In this document: positions 24,426 to 32,828 of the stretch, in pieces
How positions within the stretch are numbered: the stretch's first letter is position 1
Layout of the letters: every line of letters begins with the position of its first letter
From: Sulfurimonas lithotrophica
Lineage (GTDB): Bacteria; Campylobacterota; Campylobacteria; Campylobacterales; Sulfurimonadaceae
Assembly (NCBI RefSeq): GCF_009258225.1
Contig: NZ_CP043617.1
Coordinates: 2,108,001 to 2,172,000, forward strand
DNA: 64,000 bases
Direction: 5' to 3'
The notes under the pieces: model-generated
What the model saw: only the letters and a program-made list of their open reading frames with translations
The model's database searches: none
What the model was told of the DNA's origin: nothing
Translations under genes and position numbers: made by a program

Positions 24426-27400
24426 ATGAAGAGAGTATTGGGTTTAGATATAGGTGTTGCAAGTATAGGCTTTTCATTAATAGATGTGTTGGAAAAAGAT
24501 GGAAAAACTGAATTTAATAATCTTACAACAAATAGTATTATTTTTGATGTTCCAGAACTTGCAGAAGAGAGACGTAAAGGGCGTTCTTCGAGAAGATTGA
24601 ACGATAGAAAAAGCAGAAGAAAACAACATATACGTAATTTATTCTTTGAACATGGTTTAACAGATAAATCTTTTGTTACTGAGCCAAGTAGTTACTTGAA
24701 TACTTTAGATGTAGAGAGTGATGTTTATATTCTAAGAGAAAAGGCATTACATCAAGATTTATCTAAAGCAGAGTTTATCAAAGCACTTTATAGCATAACT
24801 ACAAGGCGTGGGTATTCAAATCAATTTGAATCGACCGAGCAAGATGAAAATAGTGCAAAAGAAAATGAAAAAATCAATGGCTCCATAAGTAAAAACATAC
24901 AGCTAATCAAAGAAAAAGGTTTCATCCTCCCTACTGAACTTTTAACATATAGACGTACTCAAAAAGAAGAACTTGGATACCAAAACATTCCTGTACGCAA
25001 TAAAGGCGGTAATTATACAAATTCACTCAATAGAAAACTCCATGAAGATGAATTAAAAATCGTAATTTTCAGTCAAAAAGATAATAGAAATATTTTTGCA
25101 AGTGAAGAGAAATGTGAAAAGTTTTATATCGCGGTAAGAGATGTAATGATGGAACAACGACCGCTTAAAAGTTTTGAAGATATGGTTGCATATTGCAGTT
25201 ATTTTGACAAATATCACGAAACACCGCAAAAGAGAATGTCTCTTTCAAGTATTTACAATATAGAACTCACTTTAAAACAATCTCTCAGCAATTATAAAAC
25301 TATGGATAAAAAAAGTGGTGAGATAATTTCTTTGTCAAAAAAGCAAATTGATGAGGTGGTTGCAAAATGGGTTAATGAGCCGACAAGCGATAAGATCACA
25401 TTTGCAAATATTTTTACAAAAACAAGTTTGAAAAACTGTAAACTTAATGATGTTGGTGGAAGTGCAGAAGTACTGAACATCAAAGGATTTAGAGAACTAT
25501 CTGCTATTTTCAAGCAGTATAATGTGGATTTTTATACTGAGCATAGAGATTTTTTTGAAAAAGCACTTCTTATTTTGAGTTACTATAAAAATATTTCTAA
25601 AAGAGTTGAAGAGTTACAAAAATCTTTTACTGGAAAATTGGAGCCAAAAGATGAATTCATTAATGAAGTTGCAAAAGTATCTTCCATAGATGGATTCGGT
25701 TCTTTTTCAGTTCGTTTTGCAAAAATGGTTTTAGAAAAAATGGAACAGGGGAATTCATTTTCGGAGGCTCTTGAGAGTTTGGGTTATTTTGATAAATATC
25801 TTGGTATGCCAGCTTATGATTACTTACCACCGTTTAACCCTACACAAGCAGATATAAAATGGTTAAAAGAGAATCTCTCTTACTTTGATACAAAGCATCT
25901 GTACTATAAAGCAAACAGTTCAAAAACAGTTGAACGAATTATCTCGGTAATGAGAAAACTTATCAATGACATAATAAAAAAATATGGGAAAATTGATGAG
26001 ATAGCGATAGAAGGTGGAAAAGAGCTTAACAGTAAAAAAGAAGAAGATAAAATTAAAGAAAACCAAAAAGACGATAAAAAGATCAACGATGAGGCAAAAA
26101 ATCTTTTAAAAGACAAGAATATCAAAGATTATGATAACCCTACAAAAGTTAGAAAAGCTAAAATGCTTATTGAACAAAAATATAAATGTCTTTACAGCAA
26201 CGAACCGCTAACCCTCAAAGAGGCATTAGATGAAGAAGAATGTGAAATTGAACATTTTATTCCACGTTCCCATTTTTGGAACAACTCTCAAAAAAACACC
26301 ATTCTCGTCCTTAAAAAGCATAATCAAAACAAAACTGATGTACCACCTATGGAGTATCTAAAACAGATAGGAAAGTGGGAAGATTATAAAGCAGCTGTTC
26401 ATAACAGCTCGATGAAAGAGAGTAAAAAAGATTGGCTCACAAATGAAGAAAAAATAGAAGCTATTTTTGATCAAGATACTAATGTTTTTCTAGCAAACTA
26501 TCTAAATGATACACGTTCAAGTATAAAGATTATCAAAAACTACCTTGAACATTATCTCTATCCTAAAACGAATCGTTACGGAAAAGATGAACAAAGCAAT
26601 GTACGGGTTGTGAGTGCAAAAGCAATTAATGAACTAAAACATATTTGGGGAATCAAGGAACTAATTACCTCAGAAGATACAGGAAAAAAAGACAGAACGA
26701 CTAACTATCATCACAGTATAGATGCTTTAACAGTTGCTTTGTGTGATAAAAAAGGGATGTTTGCTTTACATAACTTTTTCAAACAAAAAGAAAATAAGTT
26801 TAAAACAAAAGCTATGAAAGAGAATGTTTCCAAGAATGTTCCTTTTACAAGTGAAGGGGAAACTCTACACTCTTTCTGTAGTCATTTAGTGGAAAAATAT
26901 AAGAACAATGAACTCTATGTATGTCCATATAACAAGATTAAGACAAATAAAAAAGGTTTTAAAGATGGAAACAAAAAGCTTGTAGTGGCACAAAATTCTA
27001 AAGGGGTTAAACAGCTTCAAGAATTAAAAAATATCAGCTTACTTCCTTATGACCTTCTTCAGGAGAAGAAACAGCTAAAAGTGACAGATAGAACAGATGA
27101 GGGTGTAAGAATGTGTGTTCAAGAAATTGTATCGCAACTTGATATTTTTAAACAAAAAGGGATTAGAGAGGCTTTACCAAAATATGGCGAATTTTTGATT
27201 GCAAAAAGGGCAGAAGAAGAAAAATTTAGTGTACTAGAAAAAGAGCTTGTGAATAAACAAAAAGCTGATAAAAAGAAAGAAGATGTGGAACTTTCTAAGC
27301 AGATAGATGAGATAAAATCACAACTTCAATCCGTTAGAGATGAAATAGCGTTTTCAAATTGTTATTTTGTAACGAAAAATGGAACCAAACAGATTGTTAA

Positions 27401-27899
27401 AGGTGTGAAAAATTTAAGTGATTCAGAAACAAAAGCGAGTACTGTACTGATTCAAAATGGCAATAGTATTTTAATGGAAAAATTGAATATAGAAACTTTT
27501 AAACAAGCGCAAGAAGAGGGGCACCCATTTGTATGTAAAGAGAATGATTATACAGTTTCTGTAGATATTTACAGTTCTTCTAAACATCAGATAATCGGAC
27601 TTAAATATTTTAGATCTATAGAAAATGATATAGAACCAAATTTTAAGGAAAGTTTTCAAAATATAGATAAACAGTATGAGTTTTCTATACATAAAGGGGA
27701 AGTTGTCGTTATTTTAGATGAAAAAGAGAAAGTTCAGTATTTGGCGGTTGCTAATGGTGGAGGACAAATAGCTGGTACAAATCATAAGATACAAATTGAA
27801 AATATTAATACAAATGGTGTTGTAGCAGTAACTATCAATAAAAAAACAATCATAAAAAAAGCAAAAATTGACTTTTACGGAAATTTTCAGATTGGCTAA
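24426..27899 (+). CDS. cas9: Type II-C CRISPR effector nuclease Cas9
   Basis: 1157 residues, within the compact II-C size range. RuvC-I is at the N-terminus (LGLDIGVASIGFSL, catalytic Asp8). The Arg-rich bridge helix lies at about 46-72 (EERRKGRSSRRLNDRKSRRK). RuvC-II is IAIEGGKE with Glu529. The HNH domain has ECEIEHFIPRSHFWNNSQKN, with His610 as the general base. RuvC-III is YHHSIDALTVAL with His762 and Asp766. The C-terminal 300 residues form the wedge and PAM-interacting region and are not assignable by motif. All nuclease residues are present, so it should be active. It is the first gene of the cas9-tracrRNA-cas1-cas2 locus; no cas4 or csn2 is present, which defines II-C. Confidence 0.97.
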   Translation: MKRVLGLDIGVASIGFSLIDVLEKDGKTEFNNLTTNSIIFDVPELAEERRKGRSSRRLNDRKSRRKQHIRNLFFEHGLTDKSFVTEPSSYLNTLDVESDVYILREKALHQDLSKAEFIKALYSITTRRGYSNQFESTEQDENSAKENEKINGSISKNIQLIKEKGFILPTELLTYRRTQKEELGYQNIPVRNKGGNYTNSLNRKLHEDELKIVIFSQKDNRNIFASEEKCEKFYIAVRDVMMEQRPLKSFEDMVAYCSYFDKYHETPQKRMSLSSIYNIELTLKQSLSNYKTMDKKSGEIISLSKKQIDEVVAKWVNEPTSDKITFANIFTKTSLKNCKLNDVGGSAEVLNIKGFRELSAIFKQYNVDFYTEHRDFFEKALLILSYYKNISKRVEELQKSFTGKLEPKDEFINEVAKVSSIDGFGSFSVRFAKMVLEKMEQGNSFSEALESLGYFDKYLGMPAYDYLPPFNPTQADIKWLKENLSYFDTKHLYYKANSSKTVERIISVMRKLINDIIKKYGKIDEIAIEGGKELNSKKEEDKIKENQKDDKKINDEAKNLLKDKNIKDYDNPTKVRKAKMLIEQKYKCLYSNEPLTLKEALDEEECEIEHFIPRSHFWNNSQKNTILVLKKHNQNKTDVPPMEYLKQIGKWEDYKAAVHNSSMKESKKDWLTNEEKIEAIFDQDTNVFLANYLNDTRSSIKIIKNYLEHYLYPKTNRYGKDEQSNVRVVSAKAINELKHIWGIKELITSEDTGKKDRTTNYHHSIDALTVALCDKKGMFALHNFFKQKENKFKTKAMKENVSKNVPFTSEGETLHSFCSHLVEKYKNNELYVCPYNKIKTNKKGFKDGNKKLVVAQNSKGVKQLQELKNISLLPYDLLQEKKQLKVTDRTDEGVRMCVQEIVSQLDIFKQKGIREALPKYGEFLIAKRAEEEKFSVLEKELVNKQKADKKKEDVELSKQIDEIKSQLQSVRDEIAFSNCYFVTKNGTKQIVKGVKNLSDSETKASTVLIQNGNSILMEKLNIETFKQAQEEGHPFVCKENDYTVSVDIYSSSKHQIIGLKYFRSIENDIEPNFKESFQNIDKQYEFSIHKGEVVVILDEKEKVQYLAVANGGGQIAGTNHKIQIENINTNGVVAVTINKKTIIKKAKIDFYGNFQIG

Positions 27900-27925
27900 A
27901 GATGAATTACTCTAAAATTATACTC

Positions 27926-28013
27926 GTATCAAATGGGGATTTGATAGTCTGCTTAAGACAAGGGGTCCTCTCCGCACCCCGCAAGGTTTATCCTTTCAAG
28001 CGGAGAACTTCTT
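27926..28013 (+). ncRNA. tracrRNA between cas9 and cas1
   Basis: 27926-27959 is a degenerate copy of the CRISPR repeat (19 identical bases, then a bulged region, then AAGAC), on the strand that can pair with repeat RNA made from the minus strand. The tail folds well: TCTCCGC (27969-27975) pairs with GCGGAGA (28000-28006), enclosing a small AAGG/CCTT hairpin, and GGGG (27962-27965) can pair with CCCC (27977-27980) as a pseudoknot. A -10 candidate TATACT lies at 27919-27924. The 3' end is uncertain; CTTCTT just before the cas1 ATG is the only T-rich stretch. Confidence 0.8.
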
Positions 28014-28886
28014 ATGTTTAAACATATATTCATCAAAAACAGATCTCACCTCTACTATAAAAATAATTCACTTGGCATAAAAAATGATGATTTTGACACT
28101 ACTATATCTTTAGATGATATAGATATGCTTATAGTTGAAAACCAACAAACTACGATTACATCGTCGTTACTTTCACATCTAGCACAAAAAAATATCTGTA
28201 CCGTTTTTGTAGACGAAAAATATATGCCTTCATCTATCAATATCCCGCTTTATAAAAATAGTAGAGTTTCACTCGTACAAAAGGCACAGCAAAAAGTTTC
28301 CAAACCAAAGCACAACCAGTTGTGGAAACAGATAATCTTTGCAAAAATAAAGCATCAGTCTTTTGTCTTGGAAAAATATAAAAAGAGTAAAGCGATAGAT
28401 GGACTGTGGCATAAAGTAACCTCTGCCGATAAAACAAATATAGAAGCACTTGCCGCAAATATATACTTTCCAGAACTCTTTGGTAAAGAGTTCACAAGAA
28501 GAGATGACAGCGTTATAAATGCTGCACTTAATTACGGTTATAGCATTATAAGAAGTTCAATAGCCCGTTATATAATTGCTTACGGAATAAATCCGACAAA
28601 TGGTATATTTCATTCAAGCCAGTTAAACAATTTTAATTTGGCAGATGATTTTATAGAAGTATTTCGTCCTGTTGTGGATGAGTTTGTACATTGTAATATT
28701 AAAAGTAAAAGTTTTGGATGGGAAGAAAAAAAGAAGTTTTCTGTACTACTTTATGAGTATGAATTGTTTAATATAGAAGAGGAACGTAAAATCTCTCTTG
28801 ATAATGCAATAAAAACAGTTGTCGCCTCTTATCAGTCTTTTTGTCTGGGTAAAAGAGAAAACATAAATATAGCAAAAATGATATGA
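28014..28886 (+). CDS. cas1: CRISPR adaptation integrase Cas1
   Basis: 290 residues. The metal-binding catalytic triad of Cas1 is visible: Glu144 in NIEALAANIYFPELF, His200 in GIFHSSQLNNFN, and Asp211/Asp212 in LADDFIEVFRP. Length and motifs fit a type II Cas1. With Cas2 it integrates new spacers. Its Shine-Dalgarno (GGAG at 28002-28005) lies inside the last stem of the tracrRNA, so translation may depend on the state of that stem. The stop overlaps the cas2 start by four bases. Confidence 0.96.
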   Translation: MFKHIFIKNRSHLYYKNNSLGIKNDDFDTTISLDDIDMLIVENQQTTITSSLLSHLAQKNICTVFVDEKYMPSSINIPLYKNSRVSLVQKAQQKVSKPKHNQLWKQIIFAKIKHQSFVLEKYKKSKAIDGLWHKVTSADKTNIEALAANIYFPELFGKEFTRRDDSVINAALNYGYSIIRSSIARYIIAYGINPTNGIFHSSQLNNFNLADDFIEVFRPVVDEFVHCNIKSKSFGWEEKKKFSVLLYEYELFNIEEERKISLDNAIKTVVASYQSFCLGKRENINIAKMI

Positions 28887-29215
28887 GTAGATTTAGACGT
28901 ATGGTTTTATTTGCAATGTTTGATATGCCTACAGAGACAAAGGGTGATCTAAAAAGATATAGACAATTTAGAAAAGACTTGCTTTCATATGGCTTTATAA
29001 TGTTTCAGTACTCTGTATATGTCCGATTTTGTGACAGTTTGTATATGGCAGAAAAATATGAAGCAAAAATTGAAGAGGTTGCACCTGAAAAAAGTTCTAT
29101 TCGAGTACTTCGAGTTACAGAAAATCAATACAAAAATATGATAATTGTTGAAAACTATCGAGAAAAACCAGAGGAAAAAGTAGAAGAGATGACACAACTT
29201 GTTATGGTTTTTTAG
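28883..29215 (+). CDS. cas2: CRISPR adaptation protein Cas2
   Basis: 110 residues. The ferredoxin-like fold begins with MVLFAMFDMPTETK; Asp14 is the conserved Cas2 acidic residue. GFIMFQYSVYVRFCDS is the second characteristic strand. It is translationally coupled to cas1 (ATGA overlap). Only 49 bases separate its stop from the first CRISPR repeat. Confidence 0.95.
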   Translation: MSRFRRMVLFAMFDMPTETKGDLKRYRQFRKDLLSYGFIMFQYSVYVRFCDSLYMAEKYEAKIEEVAPEKSSIRVLRVTENQYKNMIIVENYREKPEEKVEEMTQLVMVF

Positions 29216-29255
29216 AAGGTAACGTCTCTAAAAAGTCCTAAATATAGTACCTTTG

Positions 29256-29294
29256 AGCTACTCTATTGTATCAAATGGGGATTTGAGAGTAGCT
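29256..29294. repeat. Inverted repeat joining the array edge to the first repeat
   Basis: AGCTACTCT at 29256-29264, directly before the first repeat, is the exact reverse complement of AGAGTAGCT at 29286-29294 inside that repeat. On the minus-strand array transcript it would fold the last repeat into a hairpin. It could act as a processing or termination signal, or as a landmark for Cas1-Cas2. Confidence 0.5.
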
Positions 29295-31386
29295 GAAGAC
29301 GAAGCGAATAGAGAGCGTAGCTCGTTGTGCATTGTATCAAATGGGGATTTGAGAGTAGCTGAAGACCAAAGTGAAAGTTTAGAGTATTATTCTAAAATTG
29401 TATCAAATGGGGATTTGAGAGTAGCTGAAGACACGAGTTTAGCACTATAACATCACTTTTAAATTGTATCAAATGGGGATTTGAGAGTAGCTGAAGACGC
29501 ATGTTCTGTAGCACCGACTATCTTCATAATTGTATCAAATGGGGATTTGAGAGTAGCTGAAGACAGTATGTTTTTATATAAATGATTTAGAACAATTGTA
29601 TCAAATGGGGATTTGAGAGTAGCTGAAGACTGTGTTTCAGATGGCGAAGGGGATTATGATATTGTATCAAATGGGGATTTGAGAGTAGCTGAAGACTTTT
29701 CGCAAGAGGACAATTCAACCACCAGAATTGTATCAAATGGGGATTTGAGAGTAGCTGAAGACCATACCATCTGAATTACATAGCACTTTATAATTGTATC
29801 AAATGGGGATTTGAGAGTAGCTGAAGACAAACTCAGTCAAGTTGATGTCACCTGTAGTATTGTATCAAATGGGGATTTGAGAGTAGCTGAAGACGCAGGT
29901 AAACGCATTATGATTTCTTTGCGAATTGTATCAAATGGGGATTTGAGAGTAGCTGAAGACTGTTATCTCATCATATTAGAAAAATAAACTATTGTATCAA
30001 ATGGGGATTTGAGAGTAGCTGAAGACATGACAGGTGTATTTATAGCACTTGGAACAATTGTATCAAATGGGGATTTGAGAGTAGCTGAAGACTACCTAAA
30101 AGAGCTGGACGCATACAGCTTGATTGTATCAAATGGGGATTTGAGAGTAGCTGAAGACACTAATTCTCAATTGAAATTCCAAAATGAGATTGTATCAAAT
30201 GGGGATTTGAGAGTAGCTGAAGACATAGCTTACAAATGGTAAAAGCAGAATCAGATTGTATCAAATGGGGATTTGAGAGTAGCTGAAGACAAAGGTGTAA
30301 TAAATGAATCTAAAACCAAATTGTATCAAATGGGGATTTGAGAGTAGCTGAAGACCATAACTTTGTCGGAGGTGTTACGAAAAGTATTGTATCAAATGGG
30401 GATTTGAGAGTAGCTGAAGACGGTATAACTCAACTAATGGGGATGAATTAATTGTATCAAATGGGGATTTGAGAGTAGCTGAAGACTATGAAAACATAAT
30501 TGATAGCGTTCTGCGTATTGTATCAAATGGGGATTTGAGAGTAGCTGAAGACTAGACTTTTCGCCATCAAAACCTTTACGTTATTGTATCAAATGGGGAT
30601 TTGAGAGTAGCTGAAGACTGTCCTACTGATATATTGATACTCATTTTTATTGTATCAAATGGGGATTTGAGAGTAGCTGAAGACAGACAAATTAGGAAAT
30701 GAAATTACAAAAGAATTGTATCAAATGGGGATTTGAGAGTAGCTGAAGACTAAGCACTATAACTTACCGATATGTTAATTATTGTATCAAATGGGGATTT
30801 GAGAGTAGCTGAAGACAGTAGTAGCTGATACGATACCGACTAAGAAATTGTATCAAATGGGGATTTGAGAGTAGCTGAAGACGTACAAGCTGACTACTCA
30901 TTCACTATGAAATTGTATCAAATGGGGATTTGAGAGTAGCTGAAGACCCTTGTCTTAGCTTATTAGCTCTTTTTTGAATTGTATCAAATGGGGATTTGAG
31001 AGTAGCTGAAGACAAAAGTGTTTTATGATCTAAATGCACCGGCATTGTATCAAATGGGGATTTGAGAGTAGCTGAAGACATGTTTGTTGGCAAAGAGCTT
31101 TTAACTAAAATTGTATCAAATGGGGATTTGAGAGTAGCTGAAGACCGCGTGGGTACAAAACCCTAATTTAATTTATTGTATCAAATGGGGATTTGAGAGT
31201 AGCTGAAGACATGAGTAGAGTTACTTATTATTCATTAGATATTGTATCAAATGGGGATTTGAGAGTAGCTGAAGACCGCGTGGGTGCAAAACCCTAATTT
31301 AATTTATTGTATCAAATGGGGATTTGAGAGTAGCTGAAGACATGAGTAGAGTTACTTATTATTCATTAGATATTGTATCAAATGGG
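29265..31386 (-). CRISPR. Type II-C CRISPR array, 32 full repeats, one truncated repeat, 32 spacers
   Basis: The 36-bp repeat begins ATTGTATCAAATGGGG and ends GAGAGTAGCTGAAGAC on the plus strand and looks identical in all 32 full copies. Spacers are 30 nt, six of them 29 nt. A 33rd copy (31372-31386) keeps only the first 15 bases. On the minus strand each repeat ends TTTGATACAAT, an extended -10 (TGnTACAAT), as in the repeat-embedded promoters of Neisseria II-C arrays. Together with a tracrRNA anti-repeat of plus-strand polarity, this sets transcription on the minus strand, toward cas2. The last two spacers at the right edge are a near-perfect duplication of the two before them. Confidence 0.98.
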
Positions 31387-31676
31387 AATATTCATTACAA
31401 CATTTAATAAATGTATATAGTTATAAAGGCTTTTTGCATCAAAATTACTTACTTTTAGAACAAATATAGTATATATAACTTTACTTGTTCCAAATAGTGT
31501 TCAAAAATTGAAAATCAACACTCCCATAACTATTTAATACTTTTTAAACAAACATAATCAAAATCCATAAAAAAATAAAATTTGTAGAATTGTGCATTTT
31601 ATATGGAGTATCTATCTAGTAGATAATTTTAAAAAGTTATAAAATTGTATTATAAAACCTTATTAGGAGGAGATAG
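31387..31676. other. AT-rich gap between the array and the alcohol dehydrogenase gene
   Basis: 290 bases without a convincing gene. On the minus strand this is the region upstream of the array transcript, so it is the candidate leader. It holds widely spaced GAACAA (31458) and TTGTTC (31485), and the palindrome at 31613. A strong AGGAGGAG just before 31677 belongs to the next gene. Confidence 0.5.
31613..31625. promoter_or_regulatory. 13-bp palindrome upstream of the alcohol dehydrogenase
   Basis: TATCTAGTAGATA is a perfect 6-1-6 palindrome, 51 bases before the start codon, in promoter position. It is probably an operator for an unidentified regulator. Confidence 0.4.
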
Positions 31677-32828
31677 ATGCAAACATCGCAAAATCCGTCT
31701 CGAAGAGATTTTATTAAAACCTCGGCAGCAATCGGTGCGGGACTCATACTTTGGAGTCCTGTTCTAGCAACAGACAAAGGAGATAAAATGAACGCTATAA
31801 CAACAAAAGGATACGCGGCATTTGATGAGTCGGGTGTTTTAAAACCTTGGACTTTTACCAGACGCCCTGTAGGTGATAACGATGTACTTATCGATATAAA
31901 ATTTGCAAGCATCTGCCACTCTGATATACACCAAGAAAAAGGTCACTGGGGTAAACAACAATACCCTCAAGTTCCTGGTCACGAGATAGCAGGTGTCGTA
32001 ACTGCAGTCGGTAAAAACGTGACTAAGTTCAAAGTTGGAGACCGTGCAGGTGTGGGTTGTATGGTTGATGGATGCACTACTTGTGAAAATGAGGAACAGT
32101 ACCAGAGCGATACACTATTTACATACGGTTATCCAGATAAAAGAGAACCTACGAGGATATCTCAAGGCGGATACTCAAAACAGATAGTCGTAAGAGACCA
32201 CTATGTTGTTCACATTCCGGATAGTCTTAGTTTTGAAAATGCCGCACCGCTTTTATGTGCAGGGATTACGACTTACTCACCTATTATGAGAGCAGACTTT
32301 AAAAAAGGCGATAAAGTAGCAGTAGCGGGAATCGGAGGCTTAGGGCATATGGCTGTAAAATTTGCGCTAAGTAGAGGTGCCGAGGTTTATGCTTTTACTA
32401 CAAGTGCCGACAAAGTAGAAGATATCAAAGCTTTTGGTGTAAAAGAGGTAATCGTCGTAGATGATACTAAAAAACTTTACGAATACGCAGGACAAATGGA
32501 TTATATGATTTGTACAATCCCTTATCAGTTTGATGTCGCAGCTTATGCATCTGTAGTTAAACCTTATGGATTTTTCACTCAGGTGGGGATGCCAGAAGCT
32601 TTTGAAATCACACTAAACAATCTTGGTCTTTCTTTCTCAAGGGTTAATTTTAATGCTTCTCTTATCGGAGGGATGAAAGAGACTCAGGAAGTAGTAGATT
32701 ATTGTGCGGAAAATAAAATATATCCGCAAATAGAGATAATAGATGCTAAAGATATTACTGATGCATGGAAGAAAGTTGAAAACAAACAAGCAAGGTTCAG
32801 ATACGTAATCGATACGGCTACAATTTAA
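31677..32828 (+). CDS. Zinc-type NAD(P)-dependent alcohol dehydrogenase with Tat leader
   Basis: 383 residues. A twin-arginine leader (PSRRDFIKTSAAIGAGLILW) precedes an MDR-family alcohol dehydrogenase of the YahK/cinnamyl-alcohol type. The catalytic zinc region is ASICHSDIHQEKGHWG with VPGHEIAG, and the cofactor motif is VAGIGGLGHMAVKFA. The structural-zinc lobe is abnormal: CTTCENEEQYQSD keeps two of the four usual Cys and is three residues short. A second start exists at codon 38 (ATG 31788), preceded by AAAGGAGATAAA, which would yield a leaderless 346-residue cytosolic enzyme of normal family length. Both starts have strong ribosome sites. The end overlaps the convergent antiporter gene by 11 bases. 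Confidence 0.85.
   Translation: MQTSQNPSRRDFIKTSAAIGAGLILWSPVLATDKGDKMNAITTKGYAAFDESGVLKPWTFTRRPVGDNDVLIDIKFASICHSDIHQEKGHWGKQQYPQVPGHEIAGVVTAVGKNVTKFKVGDRAGVGCMVDGCTTCENEEQYQSDTLFTYGYPDKREPTRISQGGYSKQIVVRDHYVVHIPDSLSFENAAPLLCAGITTYSPIMRADFKKGDKVAVAGIGGLGHMAVKFALSRGAEVYAFTTSADKVEDIKAFGVKEVIVVDDTKKLYEYAGQMDYMICTIPYQFDVAAYASVVKPYGFFTQVGMPEAFEITLNNLGLSFSRVNFNASLIGGMKETQEVVDYCAENKIYPQIEIIDAKDITDAWKKVENKQARFRYVIDTATI

Follow-up and report, generated by a model that had tools for sequence, protein, structure and literature searches.

The tracrRNA of a Campylobacterota type II-C CRISPR-Cas clade ends in a helix that contains the cas1 ribosome-binding site

In the 64,000-nt stretch of DNA analysed here (the window), a CRISPR-Cas locus carries its tracrRNA between cas9 and cas1, in the orientation of both genes, and the Shine-Dalgarno sequence of cas1 lies inside the last helix of that tracrRNA. 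We are nearly certain of this anatomy, the overlap of the tracrRNA tail with the cas1 start. The overall interpretation that we build on it, in which the tracrRNA is the leader of a cas1-cas2 message and its fold lowers Cas1-Cas2 synthesis, would account for the arrangement, and we regard the case for it as evenly balanced.

The locus in the window

The locus lies in a host genome of 2.4 Mb and has the cas9-cas1-cas2-array order of type II-C systems: a three-gene operon with its array, with neither csn2 nor cas4 among its genes, and with no further genes in the interval from cas9 to the array. The cas9-cas1 gap is 114 nt long and contains the plus-strand tracrRNA. The features are as follows:

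24426..27899, plus strand: cas9, 1157 aa (TIGR01865, E 2.4e-136; matches to 36 solved Cas9 sequences, best E 3.5e-40)
27913..27918, plus strand: -10-like box TAAAAT, predicted tracrRNA promoter (TANAAT conserved in 18/19 loci)
27926..27959, plus strand: anti-repeat of the tracrRNA (the tracrRNA:crRNA repeat duplex spans these positions, -44.5 kcal/mol)
27962..27966, plus strand: S1 5' arm GGGGT (covarying helix)
27969..27975, plus strand: S2 5' arm TCTCCGC, within the S1 loop (covarying helix)
27976..27980, plus strand: S1 3' arm ACCCC (covarying helix)
27983..27995, plus strand: inner hairpin H, AAGG-TTTAT-CCTT (arms covary; TTTAT invariant in 13 type A tails)
28000..28006, plus strand: S2 3' arm GCGGAGA, containing the cas1 Shine-Dalgarno (covarying helix)
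28002..28005, plus strand: GGAG, cas1 Shine-Dalgarno (8-nt spacer to the ATG at 28014; anti-SD duplex -6.6 kcal/mol)
28014..28886, plus strand: cas1, 290 aa (TIGR03639, E 2.4e-77)
28883..29215, plus strand: cas2, 110 aa (TIGR01573, E 2.6e-20)
29265..31341, minus strand (probable): CRISPR array, 32 repeats of 36 nt, all identical to the consensus

The anti-SD sequence CACCTCCTTT is present at the 3' end of the genome's own 16S genes (2 of 4 examined). The repeat, read on the minus strand, ends in the -10-like TTTGATACAAT, and the crRNAs are probably read opposite to the cas genes, judging from their pairing with the tracrRNA and from the type II-C pattern given in the relevant parts of two reports, namely crRNA promoters inside the repeats and transcription opposite to the cas genes (PMC12080349, PMC3656092). 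At the far end of the array (31110-31388) a block of two repeat-spacer units is repeated (131 nt, one base different), and the array terminates in a broken repeat preceded by a copy of the final spacer; this looks like a partial duplication of the array. An Rfam scan of 27000-32000 returned zero families at E values up to 1.

Related loci and controls

Relatives were collected by Cas9 searches of 397 class-level genomes, of family-level sets of 104, 175, 44 and 228 genomes (partially overlapping) and of genome contigs, where a single-Cas9 query gave nothing and an alignment query gave relatives. Removal of duplicates from the same genomes as kept rows (L045, L047, L050-L052, L054-L061 and L063-L067, some of which were used in place of their shorter copies) and of fragments whose cas9-cas1 junction is off the contig (L019/L053, L020 and L062) left 19 loci with a cas9-cas1 junction, the window included. 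Their Cas9 proteins are ~40–44% identical to that of the window, and the record titles of all 15 loci from the contig search name Campylobacterota groups. Two loci, L041 and L042, are near-identical, so the 19 loci amount to about 18 independent ones; these two lie in MAGs titled Arcobacter and Sulfurospirillum (Cas9 99.6%, Cas1 99.7% identical), a likeness due to either recent transfer or a binning error. The plasmid collection yielded zero relatives at E 1e-30, and none was confirmed among viral contigs. Truncated cas1 genes stand beside an intact tracrRNA in L013 (102 aa) and L018 (247 aa), and the genome of L039 has an internal stop in cas9, again with the tracrRNA intact.

The initial annotation placed a plus-strand tracrRNA between cas9 and cas1, and this is borne out: its coordinates match the sequence, and all 19 clade junctions have a sense tracrRNA in the cas9-cas1 gap (95–135 nt), with the anti-repeat core TCAAATGGGGATTTGA in sense orientation in each. 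The core lies 80–92 nt before the cas1 start across the 19 loci, and its distance from the cas9 stop varies from 10 to 50 nt. The overlap of tracrRNA and cas1 start, whose conservation had been left to comparison with related loci, is likewise kept at all 19 junctions.

For controls we chose by hand 20 other Cas9 loci of the class, mostly the better-scoring of ~48 distant hits. Among the three best anti-repeat matches per locus, 0/20 fall in the cas9-cas1 gap; the anti-repeat was located in 17/20 (as the third-best match in L073, L074, L077 and L083), either upstream of cas9 or between cas2 and the array and on the strand opposite the cas genes, while no anti-repeat was found in L081 and L085 and L087 had array-end matches only. 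In 19/20 controls with both genes placed the gap is at most 50 nt (the script calls an overlap in L069 and L087), so that it lacks room for a tracrRNA. Within the set of loci examined, it is this Cas9 clade that carries its tracrRNA in sense within the operon. One genome (G174) carries both a clade locus, L012, and a distant Cas9 locus, L085.

Array repeats are visible in 18 of the 19 clade loci (none in L013, and only one or two copies in several). By eye, the nine bases that end the anti-repeat agree with the repeat of the locus' own array in 12/18 loci and have one mismatch in the other 6/18, the window among them; this agreement marks the RNA as the tracrRNA of that array. Array repeats show two differences from the anti-repeat core in L012 and one in L044. 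The core, TATCAAAT-GGGG-ATTTGATA (27927-27946), is itself self-complementary and its computed fold is a hairpin with a GGGG loop, and since the repeat has CCCC opposite this loop, pairing may start loop to loop.

Structure of the tracrRNA tail

The S2 5' arm sits in the loop of S1, so that S1 and S2 together form an H-type pseudoknot. The final stem TCTCCGC/GCGGAGA of the initial annotation is thus present where it had been placed, but it is not a plain hairpin, since it is interlocked with the covarying GGGGT/ACCCC helix. Single-sequence folding gave z -2.65 for the 91-nt stretch (1/200 shuffles as good) and z -1.93 for 27950-28016 (12/200), and was insignificant for the last 51 nt alone (27960-28010; z -0.62, 54/200). 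Thirteen of the 19 tails (12 distinct, the window included), which we call type A, were used for covariation in an unadjusted MAFFT alignment. Proposed partners pair in 97.1% of cells overall (S1 100%, S2 94.4%, H 97.8%), and both sides have changed in 6 of the 15 pairs. For paired fraction, changes on both sides and covariation score, no shuffle out of 500 reached the observed value (four of five measures overall), and 13/500 matched the fifth, further pair types. When the partner was slid by 1–3 columns, pairing fell to 22–65% (maximum 64.6%). The unpaired S2 cells are consistent with one misaligned row, L013, and with arms assigned by hand the six core S2 pairs are present in 13/13 tails; S1 has only three pairs in L010.

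A script that looks for interlocked helices found the pseudoknot in 11/13 type A tails (missing L010 and L046), with 0/330 shuffles scoring as high, and in 16/17 control tracrRNAs (missing L072), with 26/480 shuffles scoring as high; it found some pseudoknot in 12% of shuffled clade tails and 26% of shuffled control tails, and in L079 and L082 it took helices other than those chosen by eye. Because interlocked helices were found in most tails of both sets, the type A tail looks like an ordinary tail of the class in topology. The control tails also resemble the tail of the C. jejuni tracrRNA, and the order S1, S2 5' arm in the S1 loop, inner hairpin, S2 3' arm, with the anti-repeat at the 5' end, is that of other Campylobacteria tracrRNAs of the C. 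jejuni kind.

The remaining six tails (type B; five belong to a single family, f7, some of whose records are titled Arcobacter, and the sixth to an Aliarcobacter MAG) have an S1 of GGGAC/GTCCC or GGGGC/GCCCC followed by a long AT-rich hairpin whose 3' arm holds GGAG or AAGG and extends up to the cas1 start. Compared by eye, L011 and L016 differ in the hairpin arms by changes that occur in pairs. The script found no pseudoknot in type B tails; one of 4–5 pairs joining the S1 loop to the region of the AUG can be drawn, but this is speculation.

The cas1 Shine-Dalgarno in the last helix

The placement of the cas1 Shine-Dalgarno in the last stem was correct: GGAG at 28002-28005 is within the S2 3' arm. 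The arm ends 6–9 nt before the cas1 start in 13/13 type A tails even though the spacer sequences differ (5 nt in L015 if an eighth S2 pair is counted) and the stretch before the anti-repeat core varies as widely as given above, and it is SD-like in 11/11 script-resolved type A tails (-4.1 to -6.9 kcal/mol; 13/13 by hand). The variants CGGGA, CGGAG and CGGGG are each paired with matching changes in the opposite arm; CGGGA, the Shine-Dalgarno of most type A tails, is weak (-4.1). In the six type B loci GGAG or AAGG lies 8 nt before the ATG (7–8 in L014). The Shine-Dalgarno is therefore paired within a conserved helix, as it is in Shine-Dalgarno-occluding leaders. The control tracrRNAs, of opposite strand and different position, differ in this respect too: their S2 3' arm is SD-like in 0/16, with none below -0.3, and the better anti-SD match lies in the S2 5' arm in 14/16.

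Since the clade is one lineage, a single origin of this arm polarity is possible and its loci do not count as independent rows. Maintenance of the arrangement through later changes is a better argument for selection than the polarity contrast. Besides the compensatory changes above, L015, which has a type A tail, is nested in the type B group with starred support (its Cas9 and Cas1 are 84.4% and 90.7% identical to those of type B locus L011); the tail has thus been exchanged and the Shine-Dalgarno kept in a helix. We conclude that the Shine-Dalgarno has very probably been kept there by selection.

It could instead be that the bases are shared simply because the gap is short (95–135 nt), with ribosomes easily melting the helix and cas1 translated constitutively. 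Such compaction without regulation would fit the window's cas1 start, whose opening energy (below) is not an outlier. However, the arrangement has outlasted both the compensatory changes and the swap of a whole tail, the spacing is held at 6–9 nt, and the 16 control tracrRNAs lack an SD-like arm, and we judge this explanation decidedly unlikely.

Predicted cost of opening the cas1 start

Opening positions -18 to +5 of cas1 costs a median of 10.0 kcal/mol in the 19 loci, falling to a median of 5.1 kcal/mol when the leader is cut at -22. The value for control cas1 starts (n = 18, L069 and L071 omitted and the nearest start codon taken as the start) is 6.5 kcal/mol (Mann-Whitney p 0.002), although 5/18 control starts cost more than 10 kcal/mol (21.5 in L078). 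The window's cas1 start costs 10.0 kcal/mol, an elevated but not exceptional value: of the window's 28 other SD-bearing ORF starts, 5 cost more. The range is 7.3–13.9 kcal/mol in type A and 14.7–15.8 in type B, so the predicted occlusion, from folds that ignore the pseudoknot, is moderate for type A and stronger for type B. That the helix lowers cas1 translation is a reading that we somewhat favor.

Promoter and terminator signals

A TANAAT box ends 8–22 nt before the anti-repeat core in 18/19 loci (shuffles: mean 3.2, maximum 8/19), at a distance of 9–10 nt in 13 loci and otherwise 18–21 nt; L018 has TACCAT in its place. With this conserved -10-like box a separate cas1-cas2 message could have the tracrRNA as its 5' leader, and the arrangement suggests that the tracrRNA may form the whole of that leader. 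The initial annotation had considered the stem on a cas9-cas1 read-through mRNA; cas1 does lie behind the tracrRNA on the same strand, but given the box before the anti-repeat in 18/19 loci read-through is not required.

A promoter within the tail, from which a cas1 message would start downstream of the S2 5' arm with its Shine-Dalgarno free, is highly improbable. Candidate boxes do occur: L013, L040, L044 and L049 have TATACT in the H region, the type B hairpin contains TATAAA in its 5' arm (by eye), and the tail of L018 has one TANAAT. But in 18/19 loci, the window included, there is no TANAAT from the anti-repeat core to 12 nt before the start, and the H loop TTTAT is invariant in type A; loops like it (TTACAAT) occur in several control tracrRNAs that are not followed by cas1, so the H loop does not have to act as a promoter.

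Of the 92 spacer bases that follow S2 in the 13 type A tails, 61 are T and 9 are A, and this U-rich stretch makes termination plausible in type A; it is absent from type B. The main rival to occlusion is accordingly attenuation: S2 and the U-rich spacer would be the intrinsic terminator of the tracrRNA, cas1-cas2 would be expressed only by polymerases that read through, and the overlap with the Shine-Dalgarno would be a by-product of packing. Each of the 13 type A spacers is at least half T, L039, L041 and L042 have a T6 spacer (TTTTTTA after the helix), and a T-run likewise follows directly on the last helix of one control tracrRNA, L071. Several points disagree with this. The window's own spacer is ACTTCTT; type B tails (6/19) have only the start codon, and no T-run, after the last hairpin; most control tracrRNAs have no T-run there (by eye); and a terminator needs neither an SD-like 3' arm nor a spacing of 6–9 nt. 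A terminator scan of 27600-29400 was empty, but its loop limit of 8 cannot see S2. Attenuation is on this evidence unlikely to be the explanation of the overlap, and the two processes, attenuation and occlusion, may act together.

Known systems

A tracrRNA between cas9 and cas1 is described in the relevant passages for type II-A Bifidobacterium merycicum (PMC4521832) and for L. brevis (PMC9204096), and one upstream of cas1 for Ligilactobacillus salivarius (PMC11288051). Both B. merycicum and L. salivarius have type II-A loci, the passage on B. merycicum reports its tracrRNA on the minus strand, and the passages on all three mention no overlap with the cas1 ribosome-binding site. In the full-text literature searched, whose scope the Chylinski 2013 survey lies outside, a tracrRNA that overlaps the cas1 ribosome-binding site is undescribed among the matches listed. 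For C. jejuni, dRNA-seq data are published (PMC3656092). The tracr-L of S. pyogenes is, according to the relevant part of its description, a tracrRNA form that represses the cas genes at Pcas, relief of which gives more spacer acquisition (PMC11417352); tracr-L directs Cas9 to promoter DNA, whereas the clade tracrRNA is proposed to act in cis on the cas1 leader RNA.

A closer formal parallel is with the pseudoknots of preQ1 riboswitches and of ribosomal-protein leaders such as that of S15, which take up the Shine-Dalgarno of the next gene. The clade tracrRNA is not a member of these families; unlike in those leaders, Cas9 would be the ligand, and the RNA doubles as guide scaffold.

A possible link between Cas9 and adaptation

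To our knowledge, the control of spacer acquisition in type II-C systems is little understood. From the features above we propose the following: transcription of the tracrRNA would begin from a dedicated promoter where cas9 ends, and RNase III, acting on the crRNA:anti-repeat duplex, might additionally release the tracrRNA from RNA that reads through from cas9. The pseudoknot, by its topology common to tracrRNAs of the class, would be the fold that Cas9 is expected to hold. Because the cas1 Shine-Dalgarno is part of the S2 3' arm, RNA folded as tracrRNA loads no ribosome at cas1 unless the helix melts, and the likely outcome would be low Cas1-Cas2 synthesis, lower still on nascent or read-through RNA whose fold is held by Cas9. 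Spacer acquisition would then respond inversely to free Cas9. The most likely relation, in our view, is that the tracrRNA fold and cas1 translation are mutually exclusive, with Cas9 adding to that.

The Cas9 part of this proposal is its tentative part. Feedback on cas1 that depends on Cas9 is possible, though we would not expect it with any confidence, and the same caution applies to its specific form, in which Cas9 on the tracrRNA pseudoknot would block Cas1 translation so that the memory-writing proteins are made only when Cas9 is not holding the tracrRNA. If true, it would be a direct RNA-level feedback between interference and adaptation. One short RNA segment would serve as Cas9 cofactor, possible terminator and cas1 ribosome-binding site, and with this triple role a coupling of adaptation to Cas9 loading can be tested directly. 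Tools built on guide-RNA tails from these loci will, as a caution, also include a translation start region. The pair L011 and L015, with similar Cas9 proteins and unlike tails, is a natural test of which parts of the tail Cas9 needs.
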